From positions 213,989-277,988 of the forward strand of contig SNVD02007141.1 of assembly GCA_013180625.2 (NCBI GenBank): 64,000 bases of DNA, given 5' to 3'. Of this stretch, positions 1-64,000 are shown piece by piece. How positions within the stretch are numbered: position 1 is the stretch's first letter; each line of letters starts with the position of its first letter. The notes beneath the pieces were generated by a model. The model was not told where the DNA came from. It worked only from the letters and a program-made list of their open reading frames with translations, and made no database searches. A program made the translations under genes and the position numbers. Source of the DNA: Boswellia sacra. Its lineage: Eukaryota; Streptophyta; Magnoliopsida; Sapindales; Burseraceae.

Positions 1-1295
1 GGGTATAGAACTCTTTTTTTTCTTTTTTTTTTTTTTTTTTAACTGCAATTCCACTCCCCCACACTTAAACAATACATTGTCCTCAATGTTTAAGTACGTG
101 GAAGATAAGTACAGATTTTTTTTCTCTTTTTTTTTTAACAAACATAATAAAACTCACTTGCATTGCTCATGGCATAATCCAACCTCCTCTAACTTCCCAA
201 AACCAGAACATAGCTCAAAATGTAATTGCGAATGATTTACATGCTCATAGGTAAGGGATAAACTGTTTGGAACAAATTCAATTAAGGTTAAGAAATCTTT
301 TAGTGAGTTAACAAAGAAAAAGGTTTACAGAGGCTCAAAGGGGTAACTAGGGATCAATTTTAATCAAGGTTGGCTCTTAAGGCTCAAACGGTCCAAAGAT
401 GGCCTAAATCATTTCCCCAATGTTGCACAGTCTAGGATTTCGCCTCGAGTGACCATCAAACAAGTTCTAGAATTCATTGAAATCTGAAGAAACACTTAAA
501 TTACATAAACTTTCTCTAAGTAACAAATAACTCAGTGATAATAGCTCAGTGCTCAATGTTGCGCAAGGAATCAAAGCAAAGCGAAAACCAATAAACATTT
601 CAAGCACACAGATCCATGCATCATTTATCATTTTCCAAGAGTTATTCTTAATTCAATCATTGCCTTATCATTGGCCCATAAAATGCAAGAAAAGAGGTAC
701 GTGGCGTTGTTACACCTGAGTCAAGATTGTATATTTCAACAATCCTTAGGACCAGTAGCCCGCAGACTTAAGGTTTCCAGCCTATATACCTTTATTATGA
801 AAGAACAAAACAAGAAACAAGACACTTCAAATAACATGAAATAAACAAACTACAGATTTATTTAGAGAGAATGCGTTTCAAGGGTTAAAGAAAACCCATA
901 TTCTGCCATTCTCAGGTTTTTCCACAATTGTTTTTTTTTTAAATCAAAACTGATAAAGATAAAAACACATAACAACTCTAAATTACGCAAAACTAAACTC
1001 ACTCATAAAATAACAAAGTTCAACAAGTCAGCAAACAAAAACAAGTTAGTTAGAATGGGTCTACAAAGTTTAGAAGTTAGCCTCCTTATTCAGCCATTAT
1101 GGATTGAAGAGATCCAGAATGCGTTTCAAGAGAACTTGAACTTTTTAAGCCACCACTCTAAAAACCGAGATTAGAAAATATTACCTGGGACGAAAGAAAT
1201 AACCTGAAAAAGCTCAAAAGAAACGACATGAAAAATCTCAAATAAACACACTAAAAAGAAAGCAAACAAAAACGAAGCAAACCAGCAAATAGAGA
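1..1295 (-). other. 3' untranslated region of the LOG element, copy A
   Basis: Non-coding DNA downstream of LOG on the minus strand, collinear with 59751-61080 of copy B. It contains long A/T runs and conserved Athila 3' sequence (for example the stretch around 330-450), which is also recognisable in the older Athila remnant at 51290-51480. Its short open frames have no recognisable product. Confidence 0.7.
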
Positions 1296-1945
1296 TTACA
1301 GATGGAGGGTTAAATCCAGTTGACGCCTTTTGTTGCCTTCTCCAAACCAATTTATCCGAGCCATTGTTGGATCAGGTGAATAGACGAATTCTTGTAGTTT
1401 GTCAATTAACTCTCCTGCAGTTGAAGCTGTAACCAGCATTTGCCTTGCTGACGGTGAGATGAAATTTTTTTCTACAGCTTGATCAAGAAAGGACAACAAA
1501 CCATCAAAAAAATTATTAACATTTAACAAACCAATGGGTTTCCGATGGATGTTTAGCTGTGCCCAAGAGGTGATTTGAAATATCTCCTCTAATGTACCAT
1601 AACCACCGGGCAAAGCTATAAATGCATCAGATTTAATGATCATATGTGCAATACGCTAATGCATACTAGAAACCTGTAACTCTTCCCCCATGGTGTTGCC
1701 TACGATATCTCGTACAGCTAATGGTTTAGGGATAATGCCGAGAACTTTGCTTCCTCCTAAGGATGCAGCTGTCGACACACACCCCATTAACCCAAGACTA
1801 CCCCTCCATAAATCAAATTAATACCCCTCGCAGCTAATGTCCTACCAAGATCAAGAGCTGCTGTTGTAAACTCTCCATCTTTACCAATTTGCGATCCACA
1901 AAATACGCATATATTTTGGAATCGCCGAATTGGTGTTTTCTCCAT
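1296..1945 (-). pseudogene. LOG cytokinin-activating enzyme, broken passenger copy A
   Basis: Processed, intronless copy of a plant LONELY GUY (LOG) gene. LOG enzymes convert cytokinin riboside 5'-monophosphates to active free-base cytokinins. The start MEKTPIRRFQNICVFCGS is at 1945. The glycine-rich GGGSLG loop is frameshifted (it reads GGVVLG, then stop, near 1800). A TAG replaces Glu in the MHERIAHM segment at about 1657. Downstream, the family motif PGGYGTLEE and the C-terminus ending LDLTLHL are still readable (1296-1643). The corresponding frame in copy B is whole, so decay happened after the two copies separated. The host parent gene is not in the window. Confidence 0.88.
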
Positions 1946-2097
1946 TTCTAAAAGTGCTCTAAACTTGTGCAAGACAATGATGTACGTTAGGTTTTATGCG
2001 ATTCAAGTGCAAGACAGGTTATAAAATGACATTTCAAAATATGCAGCATGGATATATACACACGTAAAACTCTCAAATTTGACACATGGGGACATAA

Positions 2098-2340
2098 TTT
2101 CGGTGGGGGTTGCTCGATGCAGATTTATCGCCTCGAGATTTGAAAAAATAGATATGCTTTCGGTGGGGTTTGACAAAACCTCCACACTTGTCGCCCACGT
2201 GTGCATGAAAAATGGAGATAAACTTTCGGTGGGGTTTGAAAAAAACCGCCACACTTGTCTCCCACGTGAAGCATGAAAAGTAAAGATATACTTTCGGCGG
2301 AGGTTGACAAAACCTCCACACTTGTCTCCACGTGTGCTTA
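2098..2340. repeat. G-box tandem repeat, copy A
   Basis: Four degenerate units begin at about 2098, 2158, 2224 and 2291, each opening with tttcggtgggg or tttcggcggagg and spaced 60-67 bp. Three of them end in a palindromic CACGTG (2196-2201, 2263-2268, 2329-2334). The array lies upstream of the LOG reading frame on the minus strand. CACGTG is the binding core of plant bZIP and bHLH factors, so a promoter or enhancer role is plausible but inferred. Confidence 0.8.
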
Positions 2341-2563
2341 TATCATGGGGTAGTCATCTGGTTTGTCAAAAAGAAAACTTGAAATTAAAACAAACAAAAT
2401 CAACAAACAACAACAACACAAAAACAACATTGATAATCAGATCAAACGAAACAAGAAAGAAATAAAATTCGACAACAACAACACACATTCAAATATACAA
2501 GTAGTTGTGATTGTGGCTCACATCTTCCTCTGGTTTTACGTCCAGTAACGGCTGAAACGCCTT

Positions 2564-3117
2564 CTATGAGTCGGGGATTTGCTTCCCATCCAGTTTTCTT
2601 ATAAACTGGCAAACAGGGTCGTTTTTAGTCAGATTCCCTAGACTATAACACTGCAATTCATCACGAAATTGTGTCCATAGATTAAGCAATTCACGCTGAA
2701 CAAGTCCACAAGAATGTGACTCAAGAGTTAATAAAACATTATCCAGCGACTCATTACTCAAACCATTCTTAATAAATGAAAGTTTATCTTCTCTATTCCT
2801 GGACGCAAAACCTAATGAACGACAAGTCTGGTTACAATTCCATCTAGCACATTTATAACATACTTGTAACCTTTTCGCTCTTCGCCTCTTGGCGTAGTAG
2901 CTCTTTCCTAGACCAGGCATGTATTTTGCGAGATTAATGTCCGGCTCACCGGACAATCTCACCTTGGCTTCGATAAGCCATCGGATATCAGCAGGCACAT
3001 TTAGGAGCATCAATGCCCAAAGTCTAGTCATCCGTACTTTATAAATTTAAACACAGCATTTTGAGGAAGTGAAGGGAAATATTTACGAAGGTTCGACAGA
3101 AAGATATCGGCATCCAT
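2564..3117 (-). pseudogene. Unknown Cys-rich passenger ORF, copy A
   Basis: An ORF of about 190 codons that I do not recognise. ATG at 3117 opens MDADIFLSNLRKYFPSLPQN. One missing T near 3050 relative to copy B shifts the frame, after which 155 codons run open to the stop at 2564. Visible traits are a hydrophobic MLLNVPADIRWLIEAKVRL stretch, a basic YYAKRRRAKRLQ run and a compact Cys cluster, CYKCARWNCNQTC, that could bind zinc. The C-terminal half is helical-looking and Leu-rich. It lies between the truncated pol region and LOG, in the same sense. It may be another captured host gene or an element-specific ORF. Copy B has different lesions, so the ancestral element probably had the complete frame. 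Confidence 0.55.
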
Positions 3118-3560
3118 TGAAGAGGAGAAAAGAAGAGATATTACCGATAATGCGATCGGGTTTGTTTTTCTCCAAGATATGCACGTTTCAAACTTTTGGC
3201 GAATGACTTCAACTTCCGTTTGGATGTTTCCACAAGCTGCTGCACAAATGAGCTCAAAGCACAGAGTAATCAAATTAAACAAAAGAAAGGAAAAGAAAAG
3301 AGCAAAAACGAAACTAAAGACACATAAAAGAGATAACAACACAATAGCAAACAAAAGTCAAAAACAAGTAAAAAATATAAAAACAAATGAGACAGATGGC
3401 AAAGAGAGATAAAACCTGATCAATTTGATGGCCTACGAAAGGAATCTCCTTGAGACACAAAAATTGATCATTATTACCTCATTTTATTTTTCTTTTCTTC
3501 TTTTTTTTTATTTTTCAAAAACATTGGGTTGCCTCCCAATAAGCGCTTGGTTTAACGTCC
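3118..3560 (-). other. Spacer between passenger ORF and pol remnant, copy A
   Basis: Collinear with about 62904-63352 of copy B. It is purine-rich in the middle (3260-3410) and T-rich on the pol side. It may include leader sequence of the unknown passenger ORF. No protein is recognised in it. Confidence 0.5.
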
Positions 3561-4562
3561 TCAGCCCGACGTTGGTTCCATCATGGCAGGGTCCAATCTC
3601 CGCTGTGCTTCTCTAGTGGGCTTGGATCCTTTTTTCCACAAGAAATGGTGCACGCATATGGCTGGGCCTTGGATGTGAGCACTTGTCCACCCAATAGCCG
3701 TTTTGTGATCTCTAAGTACTTGGACGAGTTTCACTTCTTGTATTGGTGCAAGGCCCATTTCTATTATAATTGGCAAAGTACCATTCTCACCCAAGAATCC
3801 ATGATTCAAATGATCTGGAAGTGACTTAGGCTCCACGGTATTGGCCTTCATCATAGAATGAAGAAGTTTCTCATTAGATAAAGACAATTCAATATACGAA
3901 ACATCATACCTGTTTGTGATTATAGCTATAGTCTCATCTAAGCATGCCATAGCTTCCTCCATTTCTTTGGACATTTGTATCAACCTTCTTGGTTCTTTGA
4001 AACTTTCTATCCTTATGTGTTCACTAATAGCAACATCCACTCCATTCTTGCGAGTTAACTCAAAACATTGTTGTGGCAAATAATCAATAACGTCAACTGC
4101 AAAAACAGAATGTAAGTCATTAGAGTACCTCATTTCCTCAAAAATATTAAAACATATCACCTTGCCATCAAACTCTATGGTCAAAGTGCCATAATGAACA
4201 TCAATCTTGATTCTAGCAGTTTTCGAGAATGGCCTCCCTAAAAGAATCGGTGTTGGATTAGGAGATGTCTCATCCTCTATTTTAAGGACATAGAAGTCTG
4301 CTGGAAAAACCAATTGATTCACCTGCACAAGCACATCTTCCACAACTCTTTTGCGATATGCATTAAAATGATCAGCAAACTGAATGGTAATACCAGTTTT
4401 CGCAAAAGGTCCAAGATTTAAAGAAGCATAAATAGAATATGGCATGACATTAATAGATGCTCCTAAATCTAATATAGCTCTTTCAAACTTGGTATTACCA
4501 ATGGTGCATGGAATGATGAACGTACCTGGATCTTTGCATTTTGGAGGAATTTTTCTTTGCAA
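3561..4562 (-). pseudogene. Retropepsin-like protease and pre-RT linker of the LOG element (copy A)
   Basis: The 333-residue frame begins with the Athila-type sequence QRKIPPKCKDPGTF, followed by the aspartic protease active site DLGASINVMP at about residues 32-41. A flap and hydrophobic core follow, then PILLGRPF at about residue 105. The tail matches the linker that leads into reverse transcriptase in Athila polyproteins (GPAICVHHFLWKKGSKPTR, then EAQRRLDP). It stops there (MMEPTSG, stop), so the catalytic RT region is absent. In autonomous relatives this reading would continue into RT, RNase H and integrase. The loss of all three at a clean edge defines the element as non-autonomous. The upstream gag frame is out of register. 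Confidence 0.85.
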
Positions 4563-5653
4563 TACAGCTGAAACATTTTCCCCACACTTACTTTCTCATT
4601 TCCCTTCAACTTTCTCTTGTTGGTGCATAACTCCTTGAGAAATTTTGTACAATGAGGTACTTGCTCAATAGCATCCAGAAGTGGTATATTTACCTCGATT
4701 TTGTGAGAAATTTCCAGGATTTCTTGTTCTTGTTCCTCCTTCTTTGATTTTGCAAATCTGCTAGGAAATGATGGAGGAGTAACATAAGAAGGAATTTGAG
4801 TTTTAAGGTCTACCTTAGAAGATGATGTTTTGTTCATGGTGGAAGTGGTGTAATCTCCTTCATCAGTTTGTGATTTCTTTGCCAGGTTTTGGATACTTGC
4901 CCCAGTTTCCATTTGCTCTCCATTTCGAATTTGCTCTCCACTTCGCAAAGTTATCGCACAAGCATTCTCTCTTGGATTGATTCACCGTTGAGAAGATAAT
5001 TTTTCTGAGCATTGGCCCTCAAATTTGCTCATGCTAGTAGCCAATTGTCCCATTTGATTTGCCAGGTTTTGGATACTTGCCCCAGTTTCCTGCTGGAATT
5101 GCATTGTGTTAGTGGCAAGTGCATTAACAATATCTTCGAGAGACATACCTGAGTTTTGCGAAGCTGGTTGCGGTGCTGGATGTGGCATTGGTGGTGGTTG
5201 CATTTGAAATGGTTGCTGCACTCTAGGTTGATTGAAACTTTGTGGCCGATTTGGTATCACATTTGGAGTGATTGGTTGATGATTCCAGTAACTGAAATTA
5301 TGTTGATCTTCCCATCCAGCATTGTAAGTGCTAGAGAAAGGATCATACCATTGCCTCGTTTGTCCTGGAAATCCACCCATGGCATTGGCTTGTTCCATAT
5401 ATTCTTCTTGTAAAGTTGGATATATGTCGATTGGATGCTCCATCGTAGAATATATCCCACATTCATAAGATTTTTGCATATCTCCTACAGCCATGTTTTC
5501 CACAAGAGAGGTTAGCTCAGAAAGTTGTTGTTCAATGTTCGGAATGCTTACCTCATTTACTCTCCATGGTACTTGTGGCTCAAATCCGCTACTGAATTGA
5601 TAGAAGTTTACTGCCATGTTGTCTAAACACAAACAATCAGAAAAGAAAAACAA
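4469..5653 (-). pseudogene. gag C-terminal region of the LOG element (copy A)
   Basis: Reading starts in a frame opening at 5653 (a more gag-like Met, MAVNFYQF, lies a few codons in). It shows the Pro/Gln/Asn-rich tail typical of Athila gag, with W-x-N-H-Q and QPFQMQPPPMPHP stretches. A TGA at about 4979-4981 interrupts the frame just before NPRENACAITLRSG, a motif shared by plant gag proteins, and the same frame then runs to 4469. The last part overlaps the protease frame, which is shifted, so a frameshift lies near 4560. The N-terminal retrotransposon gag domain is missing. A 33-bp sequence occurs twice, at 4878-4910 and 5058-5090, and repeats the peptide ETGASIQNLA. Likely non-functional in this copy. 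Confidence 0.8.
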
Positions 5654-5705
5654 AGAAAATATGAATCAACAATGAAAACAAAATAACAAATCGATTAGAA
5701 AATCA

Positions 5706-5724
5706 ATCCCCGGCAACGGCGCCA
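5706..5724 (-). promoter_or_regulatory. Primer binding site, tRNA-Asp
   Basis: On the plus strand the 19 bases equal the 3' end of plant tRNA-Asp, including the terminal CCA (ATCCCCGGCAACGGCGCCA). The minus strand is therefore complementary to the tRNA and can prime minus-strand cDNA synthesis. The site starts 6 bases inside the LTR boundary. tRNA-Asp priming is known for Athila and related plant Ty3/gypsy elements. Confidence 0.9.
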
Positions 5725-5730
5725 AAAACT

Positions 5731-7140
5731 TGATGCGTTCGAAACTAGCAAGTATACTAGTCGCACAAGTAATAAAGTGATAAGTAAGATATCGTTCCCA
5801 CGAGGATTGATTCTAACTGAATTTGTTATTTTCCAACCACAATTAACTAAATGGGGGGGTTTTGTTGAATGATTAACTAAATGAAATAAGAATGCAAATT
5901 AAGAATAACAAAACAGAAGTTAATTTGAATAAAAGATCAATGGAGAAATCTGGTTAAGGGATCCTTCTCTACCACAAGATATGGATTTGCGAATTAATCG
6001 TAGAATTGTCATCCAATTACAGCATTGAAATTATCAACCGTAGATAACAACAAGCTCTGTTATCCCAATCTTTCCTTACTTTGTTGTTAAATAAAACAGG
6101 CTCTTTATTTAATCTCTATCCATTAAACAACCTAGAACAAGCTCTCTAAATTTAATTCAATGGATGCATTACGATAAGAAAGATAGGTTGATCTAAGCAA
6201 TAAACACACAAGCTCGGATTATTTAACTTAGGTTGTATTCTCCAATTGCAATCTCTGATCACAATTTTGCTACTAAGGATTAGAAATTCAAGACAATTAC
6301 GGATCAAGATTTCTAGTCTAGCAATAGACAACAACCAGATTATATTCAGTTGGCCATTCCAAATACAATCAGCAAGCAATCATAAGCATTAGATATGGGA
6401 AAATACAAGCAACTTCAATTAGAGAATTGGATAACAACTTCTTGCACAATCAACTTACAAAAACCATATCAAGGGGCTTTGAAATCACCCTCAACCAATT
6501 CAGATTCAGTTACACATGTTTAAGAACGTGGTAAATACAATACAACATGGAGACATTCCAGAAAATGAAAGGGAAGGGAAAAACTTAGCAAATTTGATGT
6601 AATTCTCTTTGGATTGTAGTTCTTCCTCTTTCCAAGCTTCCTTTCTCCTTCAAGAACTCCAAGAGATGAAAGAATTCCAGAGCTGCAGCCTCCACCACGT
6701 TCTCCCCTCTTCAAGTTATGAAAATAAAACCCTAAAATGTGTTTAAATACTCTGCTACAGTGACTTGCTACAGTGCCCCGTATTATACATGCTACAGTGC
6801 TTGTGGAATTATATTTCTATACATCTCACACTGTTTTGATTACAACTTTTGGTACACTGAATGGATTTATAAACCGTAAATTTCTCCAGAAAATAGACTT
6901 CGAGAGCTTTCCAACGGTATATAACATGTCATCGGGTTCATTGTATATCAATACAATTAAATCCGAGAAGATCACTGACTAGCAGAGGTGAAAATGAAGG
7001 GTTTTACTCCATTTTTGTGCAAGTTGCTCCAAAACTCCTACAAACATCAAAACCACACAAAAACATAAAAATACCAAGGAATATAGCAAAGTAACATGGA
7101 TGAATTGATATAAAAGTAATACATAAATAGACACCTATCA
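5731..7140 (-). repeat. 5' LTR of copy A
   Basis: 1410-bp long terminal repeat, bounded by TG at 5731 and CA at 7140 on the plus strand (the same TG...CA on the minus strand). It aligns end to end with the LTR at 57688-59099, with scattered substitutions and small indels. The primer binding site lies directly beside 5731, so this is the 5' LTR of a minus-strand element. The flank after 7140 begins catgg; the partner target duplication is outside the window. Open frames inside (such as the one at 6520-6714, also present in the other LTR) have no recognised product. Confidence 0.93.
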
Positions 7141-21600: not shown

Positions 21601-22152
21601 TCTTGACAGAGAAAGTTTATTATTGTTTAGGTGGTTGTCGACAAATTCTCGGGTCGCTCTCGTGGATTTGGGTTTGTCACTTTTGATGAGAAAAAAGCAA
21701 TGGAAGAAGCTATTGAGGCAATGAATGGAATGGATTTAGATGGCAGAACTATAACTGTTGATAAAGCTCAACCTCACCAAGGTTCTGGAAAGGATCAAGA
21801 TGGTGAACGCTATCGTAGTCGTGACCGTGGGCGTGATCGTGACCATACTCGTGACTATGGTGGCAAGCGTGGAGCTACTGGTGGAGAGTGTTTTAAGTGT
21901 GGCAAGCCTGGACATTTCGCTAGGGAGTGCCCTGGTGATGGGGCTAGGGGGAGTAGGTATGGCAGTAGGGATGATAAATATGGCGGCGGTGGTGGCAGTA
22001 GTGGTCATTATGGTCCTGACCGAAATGGTGATCGTTTCGGTGGTCGCAGCAGAGAAGCTGGCAATCGTGGTGGACAGGGTGGTGATCGTTATAATCGTGA
22101 CCGATCTGGACCTTATGAGCGTCGAGGAACAGGAGGCTTTCGTTCTGGATAG
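18678..22152 (+). CDS. RZ1A: Glycine-rich RNA-binding protein RZ1A-like (RRM + zinc knuckle)
   Basis: Two coding exons, 18678-18788 and 21631-22152, join in frame at a GT...AG intron (AAG|gtaatc, tttag|GTG) to give 210 residues. Residues 8-80 form an RRM: RNP2 CFIGGL and RNP1 RGFGFVTF are intact. An Arg/Asp-rich linker follows, then a CCHC zinc knuckle, [14 protein letters not shown] (about residue 125), and a Gly/Arg/Asp/Tyr-rich tail. This order defines the plant RZ-1 family; the RRM matches Arabidopsis RZ1A closely ([32 protein letters not shown]). Family members are nuclear RNA-binding proteins tied to cold tolerance and RNA processing. The start ATG begins the conserved [10 protein letters not shown]. 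The intron splits the RRM between beta-1/alpha-1 and RNP1. A 3' UTR intron may lie at about 22172-22261, ending in ctgctgctgcag. Confidence 0.93.
18789..21630 (+). other. 2.84-kb intron splitting the RZ1A RRM
   Basis: A GT...AG intron (gtaatc at the donor, tattgtttag at the acceptor). AT-rich and without recognisable coding sequence; it includes a GA-rich patch at 19360-19440. Open frames inside are not supported as genes. Confidence 0.85.
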
Positions 22153-24426: not shown

Positions 24427-26475
24427 CTAAACAGTGACCCTTGTTATTTGACTGCCAGATGCCTTTTCAAAGCCTGTGAAACTATTACTCTTAGATGAGG
24501 TCATTCTACAACAGGAAGGATCAGAATCATCTTCAGAATATTCTGGTATCAGGTAAGGTATTATTTCATTGTGGATGTCGAGAGGCAATGGAGGAAGGCT
24601 AGCATCGCCTAATAGAAATTGAACTACCCTTCTCATGCTTGGCCTGTAATCTGGATGTGGATGACAGCAGAGCAGACCAAGACTAAGCACTAGCTCAGCC
24701 TCATCTGGGTCATAATAGTCCAGCGTCGGATCAATGGCTCTAGTGATTTGCCCTTGTGAATGTAGCTCTCTAACCCAATCCACCAACAGTAGTTCCACTG
24801 CCTTCTTCTGGGGTTCCAGTGGCCTTCTCCCGCATGCCACTTCTAGCATTAGCGTGCCATAACCAAACACATCTGTGCTGCTTGTTGCTTTTCCTGTCCT
24901 CGTTAGTTCAGGCGCCAAGTACCCTAGCGTCCCTACAATGTGCGTTGTCTGTGGATTTATATTGTGATCATAAGCCCTTGCTAGGCCAAAATCCCCAAGC
25001 TTTGGATTGAGATCTGCATCGATTAGCACATTGCTTGGCTTCACATCTCGGTGAACAACCCTTTGATCGCATTCCTCGTGTAGGTAAAGCAATGCTTGAG
25101 CAACTCCAATGACGATCTTGTATCTTTGATCCCAATTCAGTATTTTCTTCTTGTGTTGATGTTCCTCAAACAAAAGCTTGTCAAGACTTCCATTGGGTAC
25201 GTAGTCATAGACAAGGAGGAGCTCGTCTTGCTTTCGGCACCATCCATGTAATTGCACAAGATTGCGATGCCTAAGTCGTCCCATGCTTGTTATTTCAGCA
25301 ACAAACTCTTTCATCCCTTGACGTGAATCATGAGCAATCCGCTTAATTGCTACTTCTAGACCAGTGCTGGAGATTACTCCTCTGTAAACTTTTCCAAATC
25401 CTCCGGAACCTATAAGATTTCTCTCTCTGAATCCCCCGGTGGCCGAGTGGAGTTCTGAATATCGAAATCGACGAGCTCCATATTCAACTTCCCATTCTTC
25501 TAGGATCTCTCCTCCATTTCTGATTCTGCGTACAACATGATGTGCACCGATGATCAACAAGACAACGAGAGTGACACTTGCAAAAGTGATGCCGACTGCA
25601 AATCCTGTACTATGCACCACTTGCTTTGATCTTGTTACACTAGATGGAAGCTGAGTTACATCTAGCTCTTGCGCCTCCCCTCCGATCCTGAAGCTCCAGC
25701 CATGCACATAATGGAAGGCTGTAAGCAAGCCAGTAGAAGCAGAGAACCCTACATACATGCTCTCATCTAACACTGTGGAGAGGTCAATGGGGAATGATAT
25801 CAAAGGGCGATGTGGCCTTGACATGCCAACGGGGCATATTGACACATTGATCAACATTTCCTCGCTGTTGTAATCAATCCATGCTTGAAACAGCTCTCCA
25901 CTCTTGAGAATGATTGAAACGTTGTTGTCATTGATGTTGCTGCTATTGGAGGAGTAATAAGCAGCTGGCTCCGATATGTTAGATACCAAATTGGAGAGAT
26001 CAATTCCAACGTGGTTGTCATTGATGTCTTGAAGTTCAAGGTTTTGGACAACATCAAACTCAACTGCAAATATACGAGTAGAGGTTTGTGCATTGGAGGT
26101 AGAGTTTGGAAGGCCTAAGTACTGATTTACGAGACAATACATTGGTTGTTTGGTGGGAAAAAAAACAAAAGCTAGACCATGGCCTCCAAGTTCAGGATAT
26201 TTGGGAACGATGGAGAAGACAAAGTTTGTGCTAAATGTCATAGCAATATCTTTAGTATTGTTCACTTTGCGCTCTTTGAAGCGCAGAGGAGATGGGTAAA
26301 GGGCATGTCCCAGAATCCTTGGTTGATCACTTGTTACGGCCAGCAGGCCATCATTTCTCAAGAATGAAGTTCCGTCCAAACTCAAGTTTGCATCGAGGAA
26401 CCCATTGTAGACGAAGTTGGTCTCTGCACGTACATAACCTAGAAGGAGAAGCAAAAAGATGGGAAAGGCTTCCAT
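24427..26475 (-). CDS. L-type lectin-domain receptor kinase
   Basis: Intronless, 682 residues from the ATG at 26475. That start was chosen over upstream in-frame Met codons because it opens a signal peptide, MEAFPIFLLLLLGYVRAE. The legume-lectin ectodomain follows, beginning NFVYNGF, with the metal-site signature VEFDVVQN...NDNHVGID and several Asn-X-Ser/Thr sites. A single transmembrane helix (GITFASVTLVVLLIIGAH) lies near residue 300. The cytoplasmic kinase is complete: GSGGFGKVYRG loop, VAIKR lysine, HRDVKPSNVL catalytic loop, GDFGLAR, GTLGYLAPE and the C-lobe CGRRPLE. It is an RD kinase and should be active. Such plasma-membrane kinases act in immunity and development; the ligand is unknown. 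The layout fits LecRK family members, which are usually intronless. The subclass is not assigned. Confidence 0.96.
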   Translation of the reverse strand: MEAFPIFLLLLLGYVRAETNFVYNGFLDANLSLDGTSFLRNDGLLAVTSDQPRILGHALYPSPLRFKERKVNNTKDIAMTFSTNFVFSIVPKYPELGGHGLAFVFFPTKQPMYCLVNQYLGLPNSTSNAQTSTRIFAVEFDVVQNLELQDINDNHVGIDLSNLVSNISEPAAYYSSNSSNINDNNVSIILKSGELFQAWIDYNSEEMLINVSICPVGMSRPHRPLISFPIDLSTVLDESMYVGFSASTGLLTAFHYVHGWSFRIGGEAQELDVTQLPSSVTRSKQVVHSTGFAVGITFASVTLVVLLIIGAHHVVRRIRNGGEILEEWEVEYGARRFRYSELHSATGGFRERNLIGSGGFGKVYRGVISSTGLEVAIKRIAHDSRQGMKEFVAEITSMGRLRHRNLVQLHGWCRKQDELLLVYDYVPNGSLDKLLFEEHQHKKKILNWDQRYKIVIGVAQALLYLHEECDQRVVHRDVKPSNVLIDADLNPKLGDFGLARAYDHNINPQTTHIVGTLGYLAPELTRTGKATSSTDVFGYGTLMLEVACGRRPLEPQKKAVELLLVDWVRELHSQGQITRAIDPTLDYYDPDEAELVLSLGLLCCHPHPDYRPSMRRVVQFLLGDASLPPLPLDIHNEIIPYLIPEYSEDDSDPSCCRMTSSKSNSFTGFEKASGSQITRVTV

Positions 26476-26635
26476 GAACAGATCTTTGGAAACAAGTTTT
26501 ACTTGACGGACGACAAATCCTGATAAGGAAGGTTTGAATTGAAGTTTGATAGTCTGAATAGTTTGAAGGTTGCCCAAATTCTATGAATATGGAGATTTGA
26601 TACTTCAAAAGGGCTTCCTAGTATTTCTTAATATC

Positions 26636-34131: not shown

Positions 34132-34672
34132 TGTTAGCCCTAAGGCTACATGATAATTTTGATGATAACAATACACATTGATTCATTGTGATTTACTAAC
34201 ATGTTTATTTATGTGCAAGAGTAATATCATTGAAATAATTGTAAAATCAAGAAGAGGCTTATTAAAATGAAGTGTTGAAGCTAAGGAGAAGACTACATGT
34301 TAAATGCACCAAAGTTTAATAACAAGGTTTGATTCAAGGAATATGACACATGAGCAATGTTCAATCAATTGGTCATATATTTCTCTACAGATGTCCAAAT
34401 AATGTGATTCTGGAGCCTTTGGAATGCTTACTCAATTTATAACATTTCATATGTTTTAAAGAAATTTGAATTTCAAGTGTAAGGTTGTCCAAATCATCAT
34501 GCAAGTTGAAAGACAAATGGAAGCAGCTGACATGAGCACAGAATACTCTTTTGGACATATCTTGAGCTAGAAAAATCAAAATGACTTGATTCTTGCAGCA
34601 TTGGAAAGAGGACATAATTAGGCACATTTCATATGTTTTGAAGCATGAAAGAGCATGCAATGTAAAATAATA
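34132..34672 (+). mobile_element. Truncated Copia LTR inside CACTA 1
   Basis: Starts tgttagccctaaggctacat and is collinear with the first 510 or so bases of the complete solo LTR at 49110-50751, with moderate divergence. The 3' two thirds are missing. The similarity fades at about 34640-34672. No right target duplication can be assigned. Confidence 0.85.
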
Positions 34673-49109: not shown

Positions 49110-50751
49110 TGTTAGCCCTAAGGCTACATGGTAATTTTGATGATAACAATACACATTGATTCATTGAAATATTACTAATATGTTTATTTATGTGCAAGAA
49201 TAAGATCAATAAAATACTTGTAAAATCAAGAATAGGCTTATTAAAATGAAGTGTTGAAGCTAAGGAGAAGACTAGATGTTAAAGGCACCAAAGTTCAAGA
49301 ACAAGGTTTGACTCAAGGAATGTGACACATGAGCAATGTTCAATCAATTGGTCATATATTTCTCTATATATGTCCAAATGATTTAATTCTTGAGCCTTTA
49401 AAAAACTTACTCAATTAGTAACATTTTACATGTTTAAAGAAATTCAAATTTCAAGTGAAAGGTTGTCCAAATCATCATGCAAGTTAAAGGACAAATGGAA
49501 TCAGTTGACATGAGCACCAAATGCTCTTTTGGACATATCTTGAGCTAAAGATATCTGAATCAGTTGATTCTTGAGGCGTTGAAAAGATGATTTAATGGAC
49601 CACATTTTATAAATTTTGAAGAAATTCAAATTTCAAATGGAAGGTCAACATAATCATCATGCAATTTGGTAGACTGACACAATGAAAAAAAATCAACTGA
49701 CTTGAGCACTAAATGGTCTTTTATCCATATCTTAAGATAAAGATATCCAAATAACTTGATTGTTAATGTTTTGGAAAGATTATTCAAATATACAGATCTT
49801 TTATGTTTTGAAGAAATTCAAATTTCAAATGGAAAGTGGACATAATCATCATTCAAGTCAGTGGACTGACACAAGAAAGAAAAATCATTTGACATGAGCA
49901 CTGAATGGTCTCTTGTACATATGTTGAGATAGATATATCCAAATGACTTAATTCTTAATGCGTTGGAAAGCTTATTTAAATATGCAGATCTTTTATGTTT
50001 TGTATATTTTCAAATTTCAAACAGAACATTGACAAAAATGGCCGACAAAATTGCAATTTTTATGGTGGGCAGAAAATTTGGAGTTAGTGTCTTCACTTGA
50101 TTAAGTTCATCTCATTTGCCTATAAAATGAGCCCTTCTCCCATGCATTCAACAAGAATCCATCAAGCAACAAATAAGAGAAATATTAAGTTTAGAGAGCT
50201 TTTATATTCTTTATCTACTCCTTGAAGAGAGTTATACTTTTATTATAAACAATTTTCTTTGTTTTTGTATTGTGGTGAGAGTGAGATCATTCTTGTAAAG
50301 GATAATAGTTATCCTTGAGAGAACTCTTGGTGTGGTGTTATCAAGAGTAAAACAATTGATAGAACTCTTGGTATTGTGTTATCAAGGGTTGAAGAAAGAA
50401 ATCTTGGTGAGGTTGTTCATCAAGCAAGTTGCAAAGAATTCTACAACTTAGTGGAAAGCCTAGCTTATGGAGAAGCTAGGAGCCCGTGGACGTAGGCAAG
50501 GTTTGCCGAACCACGTAAATTGAGTTTGCACACTCTCTATCCCTATCTTTTTTATATTAATTGTACTTGTGATTGTTCATTATTGTTATTCTCTTGATTG
50601 CAACTTAGAACTTCTAATTTCATCTTCATCGTCTTTATTCTCGAAGAAAGAGTGAACTAATTTTTATCTTTCAAGAAAAGTTTTATAAATCTATTTTTAT
50701 AAATAAAAACCCAATTCACCCCCCTATTGGGTTGCCATACCTGGGTCAACA
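49110..50751 (+). mobile_element. Solo LTR of a Copia-type element
   Basis: A 1642-bp sequence that starts tgttagccc and ends gggtcaaca, flanked by a perfect 5-bp duplication ccata (49105-49109 and 50752-50756). No internal region is present, so this is a solo LTR left by recombination between the two LTRs. A cctataaaatgagccc TATA-type promoter lies near 50120, followed by an expected leader. It interrupts the Athila 3' region. A partial relative is at 34132-34672. Confidence 0.93.
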
Positions 50752-57687: not shown

Positions 57688-59099
57688 TGATGCGTTCGAA
57701 ACTAGCAAGTATACTAGTCGCACAAGTAATAAAGTGATAAGTAAGATATCGTTCCCACGAGGATTGATTCTAATTGAATTTGTTATTTCCAGCAACAATA
57801 AACTAAACAGGGGGGATTTTTGTTGAATGATTTACTAAATGAAATAAGAATGCAAGTAAAGAATAACAAAACAGAAAGTAAATTTGAATGAAAAATCAAT
57901 GGGAGAAAGCTGGTTAAGGGATCCTTCTCTACCACAAGATATGGATTTGCGAATTAATTGTAGAATTGTCATCTAATTACAGCATTGAAGTTATCAACCG
58001 TAGATAATAACAAGCTCTATTACCCCAATCTTTCCTTACTTTGTTGTTAAATAAAACAAGCTCTTTATTTAATCTCTATCCATTAAACAACCTAGAACAA
58101 GCTCTCTGAGTTTAATTCAATGGATGCATTATGATAAGAAAGATAGGTTGATCTAAGCAATAAACACACAAGCTCGGATTATTTAACTTAGGTTATATTC
58201 TCCAATTGTAATCTCTGATCACAATTTTGCTACTAATGATTAGAAATTCAAGACAATTACGGATCAAGATTTCTAGTCTAGCAATAAATCACAACCAGAT
58301 TATATTCAGTTGGCCACTCAAATACAATCAGCAAGCAATCATAAGCATTAAATATGGGAGAATACAAGCAACTTCAATTAGAGAATTGGATAACAATTCC
58401 TTACACAATCAACTTACAAAAACCATATCAGGGGCTTTGAAATCACCCTCAACCAATTCAGATTCAGTTACACATGTTTAAGAACGTGGTAAATACAATA
58501 CAACATGGAGACATTCCAGAAAATGAAAGGGAAGGGAAAAACTTAGCAAATTTGATGTAATTCTCTTTGGATTGTAGTTCTTCCTCTTTCCAAGCTTCCT
58601 TTCTCCTTCAAGAACTCCAAGAGATGAAAGAATTCCAGAGCTGCAGCCTCCACCACGTTCTCCCCTCTTCAAGTTATGAAAATAAAACCCTAAAATGTGT
58701 TTAAATACTCTGCTACAGTAACCTGCTACAGTGTCCCGTATTATACATGCTACAGTGATTTGTGGAATTACATTTCTATACTTCTCACACTGTTTTGATT
58801 ACAACTTTTGGTACACTGAATGGATTTATAAACCGTAAATTTCTCCAGAAAATAGACTTCGAGAGCTTTCCAACGGTATATAATATGTCATCGGGTTCAT
58901 TGTATATCAATACAATTAAATCCGAGAAGATCACTGACTAGCAGAGGTGAAAATGAAGGGTTTTACTCCATTTTTGTGCAAGTTGCTCCAAAACTCCTAC
59001 AAACATCAAAACCACACAAAAACATAAAAATACCAAGGAATATAGCAAAGAAACATGGACGAATTGATATGAAAATGATATATAAATAGACACTTATCA
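57688..59099 (-). repeat. 3' LTR of copy B
   Basis: 1412 bp, from tgatgcgttcg at 57688 to cacttatca at 59099. It aligns throughout with the LTR at 5731-7140. On its right is a polypurine tract rather than a primer site, which makes it the 3' LTR of a minus-strand element. Confidence 0.93.
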
Positions 59100-59113
59100 A
59101 ATTCCCCCACACT
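59100..59113 (-). promoter_or_regulatory. Polypurine tract
   Basis: On the minus strand the sequence before the LTR reads gtgtgggggaatt, a purine-rich primer for plus-strand synthesis, directly beside the LTR start. Confidence 0.8.
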
Positions 59114-61088
59114 TAGACTTTGCTAGTCCTCGAGCAACTACGACAATATGAAATAAAACTAAACCGAAACAGAATCAACAAAAAATTAAAACACACAAAT
59201 GCTTCATCTTGCAAATAGGCCTCAAAGATTGTACTTAATTATAACCCAAGGAAAACTTCAAAATAATGCACTTGATCAAGAATTTTATCTCAAAGATTAG
59301 TTTCGCTTCATTTCAATTCCTCAAGTGTGTGTGTGTAGAGCCATTCTCACCTAATCACTTGTAACCCGGATGAGTTTATGCATAAAAATGAATCATATTT
59401 AATATTGAAGATGTGTGTATAAATGAACTCCATAGGCCTGCTTTTCAAGTCACTCTCCACTAATGTAGACATGCACAACACCAAGGATCAAGTAGGACTT
59501 TATTAAGCTTGTAACGTTTGGCTTGGGTGAAGGTATGATAAAGGATAATAATTTGGCTCAAATCACCCACAAACACATAAATCATTCAAGACTATGTAGA
59601 GCTCAACCCTATAACTCAACTTCATTTCAATTCACCAGGTTACTCCCCCAAACTTATTTAGAACACTCAATCTTTTTTTTTTTTTAACAGAAAACAAAAG
59701 AAAACTATACCCCCACACTTTGTTGTTTCATTCTTTTTAAGAACACATAAGGGTATAGATCTCTTATTCTTCTTCTTTTCTTCTTTTTTTTCTTTTTTTT
59801 CTTTTTTTTCTTTTTTTTTATTACACTTCCCCTCCCCCACACTTAAACAACACATTGTCCTCAATGTGTAAGTACGTGGACGATAAGTACAGATTGGCTT
59901 TTTTTTTTTTCTTTTTTTTTTTTAAAACATAATAGAACTCACTTGCATTGCTCATGACACATCCCAACCTCCTCTAACTTCCCAAAACCAGAACATAGCT
60001 CAAAATTTAATTGTGAATGATCTACATGCTCATAGGTAAGGGATAAACTGTTTGGAACAAATTCATTTTAGGTTAGGAAATCTTTTAGTGAGTTAACAAA
60101 GAAAAAGGCTTACAAAGGCTCAAAGGGGTAACTAGGGATCAATTTCAGTCAAGGTTGGCTATTAAGGCTCAAACGGTCCAAAGATGGCCTAAATCATTTC
60201 CCCAATGTTGCACAGTCTAGGATTTCGCCTCGAGTGACCATCAAACAAGTTCTAGAATTCATTGAAATCTGAAAAAACATTTAAATTACATAAACTTTCT
60301 CTAAGTGAACAAATAACTCAGTGATAATAGCTCAGTGCTCAATGTTGCGCAAGGAATCAAAAGCAAAGCGAAAACCAATAAACATTTCAAGCACACAGAT
60401 CCATGCATCATTTATCATTTTCCAAGAGTTATTCTTAATTCAATCATTATCTTATCATCGACCCACAAAATGCAAGAAAAGAGGTACGTGGCGTTGTTAC
60501 ACCTGAGTCAAGATTGTATATTTCAACAATCCTTAGGACCAGTAGCCCGCAGACTTAAGGTTTCCAGCCTATATACCTTTATTATGAAAGAACAAAACAA
60601 GAAACAAGACACTTCAAACAACATGAAATAAACAAACTACAGATTTATTGAGAGAGAATGCGTTTCAAGAGTTAAGAAAACCCCATATTCTGCCATTCTC
60701 AGGTTTTTCCACAATGTTTTTTTTTTTTGAATCGAAACTGATAAAGACAAAAACACACAACAACTCGAAATTACATAAAACTAAACTTACTCAGAAAATA
60801 ATAAAGTCCAACAAATCAACAAACACAAACAAGTCAGTTAGAATGGGTCTAAAAAGTTTAGAAGTTAGCCTCCTTATTCAGCCATTATGGATTAAAGAAA
60901 TCCAGAATGCGTTTCAAGAGAACTTGAACTTTTTTAAGCCACCACTCTAAAAGCCAAGATTAGAAAATATTACCTGGGACAAAAGAAACAACCTGAAAAA
61001 AAACTCAAAAAGAAATGACATAAAAAAAACTCAAATAAACACAATAAAAAGAAAGCAAATGAAAACAAAGCAAACCAGCTGATAGAGA
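59114..61088 (-). other. 3' untranslated region of the LOG element, copy B
   Basis: About 2 kb of non-coding DNA between the LOG stop codon and the polypurine tract. T-rich runs occur at 59672-59685, 59771-59820 and 59898-59923. Open frames here (for example 60335-60631) have shifted relatives in copy A and show no domain. The stretch at 60066-60255 is the conserved Athila 3' block. Confidence 0.6.
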
Positions 61089-61739
61089 TTACAGATGAAG
61101 CGTTAAATCCAGTTTACGCCTCTTATTGCCTTCTCCAAACCAATCTATCTGAGATATTGTTGGATCAGGTGAATAGAGGAATGCTTGTAATTTGTCAATT
61201 AACTCCCCTGCAGTTGAAGCTGTAACCAGGATTTGCCTCGCCGACTGTGAGATGAAGTTTTTTTCTACTGCTTGATCAAGAAAAGACAACAAACCATCAA
61301 AAAAATTATTGACATTTAACAAACCAATGGGTTTCCGATGGATGTTTAGCTGTGCCCAAGAGGTGATTTGAAATATCTCCTCTAATGTACCATAACCACC
61401 GGGCAAAACTATAAATGCATCAGATTTAATGACCATATGTGCAATACGCTCATGCATACTAGAAACCTGTAACTCTTCCCCTATGGTGTTGCCTACGATA
61501 TCTCGTACAGCTAATGGTTTAAGGATAATGCCGAGAACTTTGCTTCCTCCTAAGGATGCAGCTGTCGACACACACCCCATTAACCCAAGACTACCCCCTC
61601 CATAAATCAAATGACTACCCATCGCAGCTAATGTCCTACCAAGATCAAGAGCTGCTGTTGTAAACTCTCCATCTTTACCAAATTTCGATCCACAAAATAC
61701 GCATATATTTTGGAATCGCCGAATTGGTGTTTTTTCCAT
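61089..61739 (-). CDS. LOG: LOG cytokinin riboside 5'-monophosphate phosphoribohydrolase carried by a retrotransposon
   Basis: Unbroken, intronless ORF of 216 residues. LOG enzymes cleave ribose 5-phosphate from cytokinin nucleotides and release active cytokinin in the cytosol. Visible are ICVFCGS (N-terminal strand), the glycine loop YGGGSLGLMG, MHERIAHM, the catalytic signature [10 protein letters not shown] and the [19 protein letters not shown] dimer region. The length suits plant LOGs, which run about 210-240 residues. One oddity: in plant LOGs the MHxRK motif has Lys after Arg, and here it is Ile, as also in copy A; activity may be altered. The tail LDLTLHL is LxLxL-like. Host LOG genes have several introns, so this is a processed copy. 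It lies downstream of a G-box repeat in the same sense. It may be expressed or only ride along. Confidence 0.9.
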   Translation of the reverse strand: MEKTPIRRFQNICVFCGSKFGKDGEFTTAALDLGRTLAAMGSHLIYGGGSLGLMGCVSTAASLGGSKVLGIILKPLAVRDIVGNTIGEELQVSSMHERIAHMVIKSDAFIVLPGGYGTLEEIFQITSWAQLNIHRKPIGLLNVNNFFDGLLSFLDQAVEKNFISQSARQILVTASTAGELIDKLQAFLYSPDPTISQIDWFGEGNKRRKLDLTLHL

Positions 61740-61881
61740 TTCTACAAGTGCTCTAATCTTGTGTAAGACACGTTAGATATTATGCTTTTCAATTGCAAGA
61801 CAGGTTATGGAATGACATATGAAAATATGCAGAATGTATATATACACCCATAAAACTCTCAAAATTTGACACATGGGGACA

Positions 61882-62130
61882 TACTTTCGGTGGGGGTTGC
61901 TCGATGCAGATTTATCGCCCCAAGATTTGAAAAAATGAGATATGCTTTCGGCGAGGTTTGACAAAACCTACACATTTGTCTCCCACGTGAAGCATGGAAA
62001 ATGGAGATACACTTTCGGTGGGGTTTGACAAAACCGCCACACTTGTCTCCCACGTGAAGCATGAAAAGTAGAGATATACTTTCGTCGGAGGTTGACAAAA
62101 CCTTCACACTTGTCTCCACGTGTGCTTATG
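61882..62130. repeat. G-box tandem repeat, copy B
   Basis: Four units with tttcggtgggg-type starts near 61882, 61946, 62010 and 62079. CACGTG cores lie at 61984-61989, 62051-62056 and 62117-62122. The array is about 140-390 bp upstream of the intact LOG start at 61739, in promoter position. Confidence 0.82.
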
Positions 62131-62348
62131 ACATAGGGTAGTCATATGGTTTGTCAAAAAGAAAACTTGAAATTAAAACAAACAAAATCAACAAACAAAC
62201 AACAACACAAAAACAACATTGATAATCAGATCAAACGAAACAAGAAAAAAATTTCTACAACAACAACACACATTCAAATATACAAGTAGTTGTGATTGTG
62301 GCTCACATCTTCCTCTGGTTTTACGTCCATTAACGGCTGAAACGCCTT

Positions 62349-62903
62349 CTATGAGTCGGGGATTTGCTTCCCATCCAGTTTTCTTATAAACTGGCAAACA
62401 GGGTCGTTTTTAGTCAGATTCCCTAGACTATAACACTGCAATTCATCACGAAATTGTGTCCATAGATTAAGCAATTCACGCTGAACAAGTCCACAAGATG
62501 TGACTCGAGAGTTAACAAAACATTATCCAGCGACTCATTACTCAAACCATTCTTAATAAATGAAAGTTTTATCTTCTCTATTCCTGGACGCAAAACCTAA
62601 TGAACGACAAGTCTGGTTACAATTCCATCTAGCACATTTATAACATACTTGTAACCTTTTCGCTATTCGCCTCTTGGCGTAGTAGCTCTTTCCTAGACCA
62701 GGCATGTATTTTGCGAGATTAATGTCCGGCTCACCGGACAATCTCACCTTGGCTTCGATAAGCCATCGGATATCCGCAGGCAAATTTAAGAGCATCAATA
62801 CCCAAAGTCTAGTCATCCGTACTTTATAAATTTTAAACACAGCATTTTGAGGAAGTGAAGGGAAATATTTACTAAGGTTCTATAGAAAGATATCAGCATC
62901 CAT
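62349..62903 (-). pseudogene. Unknown Cys-rich passenger ORF, copy B
   Basis: Same ORF as 2564-3117. The frame around MFKIYKVRMTRLWVLMLLNL is intact here (one extra T relative to copy A) and the Cys cluster CYKCARWNCNQTC is kept. It has a TAG at codon 8, an extra T near 62568 and a missing A near 62500. Complementary lesions in the two copies show independent decay of what was once one frame of about 190 codons. Function unknown. Confidence 0.6.
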
Positions 62904-63352
62904 TGAAGAGAAGAAAAGGAGAGATATTACCGATAATGCGATTGAGTTTGTTCTTCTCCCAGATATGCACGTTTCAACCTTTGGTTGCGAATGACTTCAC
63001 TCTGTTTGGATGTTTTCCACAAGCTGCTGCAACAAATGAGCTCAAGCACATAGTAAGCAAATTGAACAAAAAAGAAAGAAAAGAAAGAGCAGAACGAAAC
63101 CTAAAGACACCATAAAAAGTACAACACATAGCAACAAAAGTAAAAAATAGTAAAACAATTAAAAACAAATAAAGACAAATAAGACAGATGTCAAAGAGAG
63201 ATAAAACCTGATCAATTTGATGGTCTACGAAAGGAATCTCCTCGAGACACAAAATCGATCATTATTACCTTATTTTATTTTTCTTTTCTTTTCTTTTATT
63301 TATTTTTCAAAAACATTGGGTTGCCTCCCAATAAGCGCTTGGTTTAACGTCC

Positions 63353-64000
63353 TCAGCCCGACTTTAGTTCCATCATGGGAGGATCCAATCTCCGTTGTGC
63401 TTCTCTAGTGGGCTTGGATCCTTCTTCCAACAATAAATGGTGCATGCATATGGTTGGGCCTTGGATGTCAACAATTGTCCCACCGTCACTAGCTATTTTG
63501 TGATCTGTCAGTATTCGGACGAGTTTATCTTCTTGTATTCGTGCAAGGCCCATTTCCATTGTAACTCGCAAAGTATCATTCTCACCCAAGAATCCATAAT
63601 TCAAATGATCTGGAAGTGACTTAAGCTCCAATGTATTGGCTTTCATCACAGAAGGAAGAAGTTTCTCATTAGATAAAGGCAATTCAATGTACGAAACATC
63701 ATACCTATTTGTGGTGATAGCTATAGTCTCATCCAAGCTTGTCAAAGCTTCCTCCACTTCTTTAGACACTTGTATCAGCTTTCTTGGTTCTTTGAAACTT
63801 TCTATCCTTATGTGTTCACTAATAGCAACATCCACTCCATTCTTGCGAGTTAACTCAAAACATTGTTGTGGCAATAATCAATAACGTCAACTGCAAAAAC
63901 AGAATGCAAGTCATTAGAGTACCTCATTTCCTCAAAAATATTAAAACACATCACCTTGCCATCAAACTCTATGGTCAGAGTGCCATCATGAATATTAATC
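63353..64000 (-). pseudogene. Pol linker and protease end of the LOG element, copy B
   Basis: Collinear with 3561-4205 of copy A. Reads PQQCFELTRKNGVDVAISEH, a DETIAITTNRYDVSYIEL segment, then MEMGLARIQEDKLVRILTDH and GPTICMHHLLLEEGSKPTRE, and stops at MMELKSG before RT, as in copy A. One base is missing near 63874 compared with copy A, shifting the frame toward the protease. The C-terminal stop is at the same place in both copies, so RT was lost in their common ancestor. Confidence 0.82.

Follow-up and report, generated by a model that had tools for sequence, protein, structure and literature searches.

A high-copy deletion family of LTR retrotransposons in Boswellia sacra carrying a virus-type nucleic-acid-binding protein gene and a LOG gene

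The window analysed here is a stretch of 64,000 nucleotides of Boswellia sacra DNA, the last 64 kb of contig SNVD02007141.1 (C3623; 277,988 bp) in an assembly of 638.6 Mb and 7,431 contigs. It contains two copies, A and B, of a long terminal repeat (LTR) retrotransposon from which reverse transcriptase (RT) and integrase (IN) are missing. Each copy holds two passenger open reading frames (ORFs), one encoding a LOG protein, of a family of cytokinin-activating enzymes, and the other a relative of the nucleic-acid-binding proteins (NABPs) of RNA viruses. The copies are internal-deletion derivatives and belong to a high-copy, non-autonomous family, in which the protease (PR) decayed while NABP and LOG stayed under purifying selection. 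An earlier, sequence-only reading had recognised the two copies with their common LTRs, gag and protease remnants and passenger ORFs, and it had missed that one passenger is a virus-type NABP, that both are under selection and that LOG has a tail.

Relatives, copy number and anatomy of the family

The position of the gene pair was established from relatives that retain RT and integrase. In a Rhamnella database protein (P0028), the end of integrase is fused to NABP. Searching the B. sacra genome with this protein (126 of 15,677 first-look candidates scored) placed integrase matches approximately 320-390 bp ahead of NABP matches in the cases compared. Ten loci were inspected, namely the eight best matches (L039-L046) and two picked because both parts were listed (L047 and L048), and all ten had the order IN-NABP-LOG. 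The complete order from gag to LOG was verified in one locus, L047, by Pfam searches with five separate frames: Retrotrans_gag in the first, Asp_protease_2 and RVT_1 in the second, RVT_1, two RNaseH models, Integrase_H2C2 and rve in the third, Viral_NABP and Carla_C4 in the fourth, and Lysine_decarbox in the fifth. The place of the gene pair is therefore after integrase, and the family in the window is a deletion derivative. The sequence-only proposal that LOG took the place of RT is thus rejected.

The deletion was also evident in five long loci drawn from the best-scoring LOG list. All five had the order LTR-gag'-PR'-NABP-LOG, and alignment of the PR-to-NABP part with copy A left no space for RT or integrase. 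The LTRs were clear at both ends in four of the five (second cut by the locus end) and were 97.4-99.2% identical. The fifth locus, L034, is rearranged; its gag-PR part is duplicated internally (L034:1055-2448 and 2844-4231, 95.5% alike).

Exact word counts indicated that the intronless LOG gene has been mobilised and multiplied, as had been suggested. Two LOG 24-mers occurred at 2,786 and 3,469 places and a NABP 24-mer at 3,265, and the reversed-word controls gave 0; these counts are per assembly, since the assembly may hold both haplotypes. The exact NABP word lay 955-1106 bp upstream on the same strand for 50 of the first 100 listed LOG places, which is a lower bound, and NABP was present in 29 of 30 LOG loci taken with 1.5 kb on each side, L014 being the exception. 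A LOG protein search of the assembly, in which 150 of 14,769 candidates were scored and the sample was biased towards intact copies, returned 150 sequences at 93% identity or more, nearly all full-length; by our own count 126 had a stop-free frame.

Copy A runs on the minus strand from C3623:211906 to window position 7140 (Table 1). Its LTRs (1,405 and 1,410 bp) are 98.87% identical, its termini are TG...CA, and a 5-bp target-site duplication (TSD), CATGG, lies on either side. The primer binding site (PBS), TGGCGCCGTTGCCGGGGA, is one that we take to be of the tRNA-Asp type, and a purine tract, identified by eye, precedes the 3' LTR. The protease remnant matched Asp_protease_2 at E 3.9e-4 and 21.5 bits, under the cut-off of 24.3, and the pol frame stops shortly past what is presumably the RT-start motif (...TREAQRRLDPAMMEP). 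The gag and PR frames are broken in copy A and in the five long loci, so these elements are not autonomous. LOG is open in copy B and broken in copy A; the NABP frame is disrupted in both by different lesions, as read from the translations, and about 27 N-terminal residues of NABP in copy A sit in a different frame.

Copies A and B were 92.8% identical across the main internal stretch of 4.2 kb. The LTR of copy B was 96.0% identical to the 5' LTR of copy A, and the 2-kb stretch that includes the 3' LTR of copy A gave 94.9%. Likeness ended at the LTR boundaries and the flanking DNA was unlike; together with the TSD of copy A, this indicated two separate insertions and no assembly duplication. 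The earlier description of two copies stood in this respect, with the qualification that copy B is incomplete because the contig ends at position 64000.

Table 1. Parts of copies A and B, in window positions unless another sequence is named.
Feature	Position	Strand	Remarks
Copy A (full length 9,223 bp), non-autonomous LTR element	1..7140	-	LTR pair, TSD CATGG, TG..CA
3' LTR of copy A	left of window, C3623:211906-213310 (L001:1918-3322)	-	
5' LTR of copy A	5731..7140	-	
PBS of copy A, TGGCGCCGTTGCCGGGGA	5707..5724	-	
gag remnant of copy A, apparently C-terminal part	4982..5653	-	frame disrupted downstream
Protease remnant of copy A	3561..4595	-	Asp_protease_2; stops at RT start
NABP-like ORF of copy A, 155 aa	2564..3031	-	Viral_NABP, Carla_C4 profile matches
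67-bp tandem repeats with CACGTG, copy A	2141..2337		between NABP and LOG
LOG of copy A	1296..1945	-	broken
Copy B	57688..64000	-	5' part absent
3' LTR of copy B	57688..59099	-	
Polypurine tract of copy B	59100..59113	-	adjoins 3' LTR; by eye
LOG of copy B, 216 aa	61089..61739	-	intact; C-terminus ...NKRRKLDLTLHL
67-bp tandem repeats, copy B	61931..62122		
NABP-like gene of copy B	62349..62879	-	split over separate frames (broken)
Protease remnant / RT start of copy B	63353..63877	-	

The family is Ty3/gypsy and probably of the Athila type, judging from the PBS, the PR/RT-start motif and the position of the extra ORFs. RT and RNaseH precede integrase in L047, the Ty3/gypsy order; the window copies have no RT or integrase. 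Athila elements carry an env-like ORF 3' of integrase. L047 shares with them the PR-RT-RNaseH-IN order and extra ORFs past integrase, and copy A shares the putative tRNA-Asp-type PBS and the 5-bp TSD. Unlike Athila, these elements have NABP and LOG instead of an env-like ORF, and the window family has lost the RT-IN part.

Two repeats accompany the copies. In each copy the interval from NABP to LOG has 67-bp units, about three in number with CACGTG inside, which could contain an internal promoter of LOG. A 302-bp direct repeat lies immediately left of copy A (L001:1033-1334 and 1617-1918, 92.7% alike). Since L001:1331-1495 is similar to the DNA right of copy A, the element appears to have inserted into the second 302-bp unit and divided it.

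The two passenger genes

Profile searches identified the 155-aa ORF of copy A as a Viral_NABP relative (E 1.9e-10, 41.6 bits, cut-off 23, approximately 105 residues matched), with a further match to Carla_C4 (E 3.1e-5). Each of these profiles was matched at E 0.01 or better by 19 of 21 aligned relatives, which are mostly about 182 aa long. Among the best 120 of 287 database matches, a C-x2-C-x4-C-x3-C zinc finger was kept in 109 and a basic cluster in 115. The named matches include Populus, Xanthoceras, Rhamnella and Orobanche, which we take to be rosids and an asterid. No relatives were found in the scanned viral contigs, in phage records or among Protein Data Bank sequences at E 1; one LOG-like locus was present in the scanned viral contigs. 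The predicted structure had a pLDDT of 51.5, below what a fold search needs. The resemblance to the carlavirus cysteine-rich/nucleic-acid-binding protein (PF05515, PF01623) lies in the zinc finger, the basic cluster and the profile match; the element version differs in being encoded by a retroelement, mostly at about 182 aa, whereas the carlavirus version comes from an RNA virus. Passages of PMC11213338 describe cysteine-rich viral proteins as usually being silencing suppressors and those of carlaviruses as carrying an arginine-rich nuclear signal.

The LOG protein of copy B matched Lysine_decarbox at 5.7e-38, and its best match among solved structures was At2g37210 (2.4e-62). The cut-off of TIGR00730 was passed and that of NF058542 was not reached (111 of 300 bits). 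A PGGxGTxxE motif and an arginine, presumably the catalytic one of LOG phosphoribohydrolases, are in place. Active-site residues were kept in most of the best 120 of 3,963 database matches (R98 in 113, E120 in 116 and E121 in 115). The same relatives carry an unusual C-terminal tail. LxLxL, presumably an EAR (TOPLESS-binding) motif, was found within the last 12 residues of 93 of the 120 LOG relatives vs 0 of 120 host LOGs, the latter being the best 120 matches to Arabidopsis At2g37210. A basic cluster of the KKRKLDLTLRL type was found within the last 18 residues of 107 LOG relatives vs 1 host LOG.

A tree of 46 LOG rows was built from 30 rows of element type, of which three come from this genome and 27 are database matches of unchecked context, and from 16 host rows, which were confined to LOG1/LOG3-class proteins plus AtLOG8. 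One branch parted the element-type from the host rows with support 100/100. Four Xanthoceras LOGs branched first among the 30 and have no LxLxL; LxLxL may therefore be a later addition. Element LOGs and plant LOG1/LOG3-class enzymes are alike in sequence family, active-site motif and core length; the element LOGs group apart, are intronless and have the extra basic and LxLxL tail.

The sequence-only reading knew of no described family carrying LOG; this claim could not be upheld. Section 12 of PMC9289625 reports a YgdH/LOG domain in the LTR consensuses from two Citrus species and, when its filter is not applied, from Populus trichocarpa, and notes agreement with Steinbauerova 2011; the presence of LOG in LTR elements is therefore already known. 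Those elements have the LOG domain within RT-bearing gypsy consensuses and perhaps belong to the same broad lineage; NABP, the tail, selection and a non-autonomous family do not figure in that section. Our literature search, with most subscription papers outside its reach, found no publication on NABP in retroelements among the papers listed, and the NABP passenger, the LOG tail and selection on both passengers were not found in print. Bs1 is an LTR element that carries a cellular gene. Orchid gypsy elements carry an m6A demethylase domain, according to PMC9289625. The window family resembles both in having a cellular gene inside an LTR element and differs in having two accessory genes, one of them virus-type.

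NABP and LOG each occur in named rosid and asterid hosts, and their togetherness is shown in this genome only. Two database proteins, P0001 and P0125, lie on contigs of equal size (8,723), which suggests that the pair is found together elsewhere. A gene shared with RNA viruses thus sits in a retroelement lineage with relatives across several plant families. A genome can contain LOG copies by the thousand, most of them broken, and annotation may count some of them as hormone genes; several database LOG matches are named as such.

Selection on the passengers and the readings weighed

Selection was assessed from ratios of nonsynonymous to synonymous changes per site, counted against observed copies only; variants were termed shared when present in two or more copies. 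For 20 LOG copies taken by listing order, each with one exact 24-mer and compared with copy B as reference, the ratio was 1.03 for single-copy variants and 0.21 for shared ones. The protease stretch was fetched for 17 of these 20 places, the other three running wholly or partly off the contig; 13 matched, of which 11 (more than 500 bases) were counted and two short ones dropped, and four had no match. In these 11 copies, a sample not picked by protein score, the shared ratio was 0.16 for LOG (40 synonymous, 21 nonsynonymous) and 0.73 for PR (53 synonymous, 144 nonsynonymous), and the single-copy ratios were 1.06 and 0.79. NABP, compared in 28 of 29 loci chosen by LOG score and hence a less neutral sample, gave 0.15 for shared and 0.52 for single-copy variants, which fits the same picture as LOG. 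In the five long copies the shared and single-copy ratios were 0.81 and 0.77 for PR, 0.04 and 0.28 for NABP, and 0.22 and 0.14 for LOG. Codon-position differences agreed with these results. Since shared LOG variants are mostly silent and single-copy variants neutral, selection on LOG was at work in the lineages that transposed and ends once a copy has inserted.

These data suggest a family that would make use of both passengers. Its gag-pol products would be supplied in trans; NABP may bind element RNA and, like the cysteine-rich proteins of viruses, blunt silencing; LOG, which its tail may draw into the nucleus, would raise active cytokinin and/or bind a TOPLESS-type co-repressor; their joint effect would be continued cell division and continued expression of the element. 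NABP and LOG were kept even in copies whose gag-pol decayed, so the products probably benefit mainly the producing copy or cell. Silencing suppression and growth control are functions that we infer from sequence, and we give this reading as a whole an even chance. A wider version, which we consider less likely than not, is that a retroelement lineage present in many eudicots evolved a host-reprogramming module of two genes, one for a silencing-suppressor or transcription-type protein shared with plant RNA viruses and one for a LOG that has become a nuclear hormone enzyme able to bind a co-repressor. Its history would include gene exchange between an RNA virus and a retrotransposon, and it would serve the copy so strongly as to be selected even without gag-pol. 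If true, the lineage would correspond in plants to a retrovirus that bears an oncogene.

Several observations weigh against the reading in which both passengers serve a deletion family. The RT-bearing relatives are distant: their LOGs are 56-71% identical to the window LOG at the amino acid level, by segment, and their NABP region is 78-81% identical to copy A at the DNA level. The LOGs of two of them cluster with another sequence, the tree leaving the place of the window LOG unsettled, and no direct parent or helper element was found among the RT-bearing relatives seen. LOG was intact in 1 of the 20 listing-order copies, although some gaps are perhaps assembly errors. The gag ratios in the five long copies (shared 0.37, single-copy 1.22) indicate some past constraint on gag. 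The 120 LOG relatives are database matches, the element context of each being unchecked, and 27 of them have no LxLxL, including 9 of 9 Xanthoceras rows. Finally, if selection acts on the copy itself, a hormone that diffuses away would be a strange advantage.

Among the alternatives, it is conceivable, if unlikely, that LOG enzyme activity alone matters, raising free cytokinin in cells that divide or belong to the germ line, and that NABP is a nucleocapsid or RNA-packaging protein and not a suppressor. The retained catalytic motif of LOG and the zinc finger and basic cluster of the NABP relatives are in agreement with this, but it leaves unexplained why the relatives have an LxLxL tail that the sampled host LOGs lack. 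That tail is an argument for regarding LOG as a regulator and no longer an enzyme, a nuclear co-repressor adaptor with a basic tail and LxLxL on a LOG scaffold. Such a protein would account better than a diffusible hormone for selection on the copy itself; however, the active-site residues, dispensable in a pure scaffold, are conserved, and the first-branching Xanthoceras forms have no LxLxL, so we consider this distinctly improbable.

It is also very unlikely that both genes are useless hitch-hikers in a successful derivative, their low divergence reflecting a recent burst from few sources. The 19 broken LOGs among the 20 listing-order copies and the neutral single-copy variants would be expected of plain cargo. 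Shared variants inform on the transposing lineages because most should have arisen there, and they are strongly silent-biased in LOG and NABP and hardly in PR; the same gene pair with recognisable protein sequence is moreover found in distant RT-bearing relatives. Neutral cargo is disfavoured by the shared-variant ratios. An assembly artefact or tandem duplication of a single locus, which the spacing of about 52 kb between two similar copies and the loss of part of one at the contig end might have suggested, has a negligible chance and is refuted by the unlike flanks, the TSD, the 7% internal divergence and the thousands of places genome-wide.

For many accessory genes of plant LTR elements no use is known. 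In this family two such genes that can be recognised stay together, and purifying selection keeps them even as the protease decays, so that the gain to a retroelement from cytokinin activation and from a virus-type nucleic-acid-binding protein becomes testable.

Other features of the window

A direct repeat of approximately 450 bp (34193-34643 and 49172-49621, 84-90% alike, approximately 14,979 bp apart) runs into arrays of a 192-bp unit. No frames of 150 aa or more were seen between its two units, which may be the LTR pair of a large element or may have arisen by duplication. A 716-aa open frame on the minus strand (24427-26577) encodes a legume-lectin receptor kinase (Lectin_legB and kinase domain) and is apparently an ordinary host gene. 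A frame on the plus strand (21631-22152) with an RNA recognition motif and a CCHC zinc knuckle is probably an exon of a host RNA-binding protein. At 13230-13733, a 251-bp A+T-rich unit occurs twice in tandem, the two being 94-95% alike.

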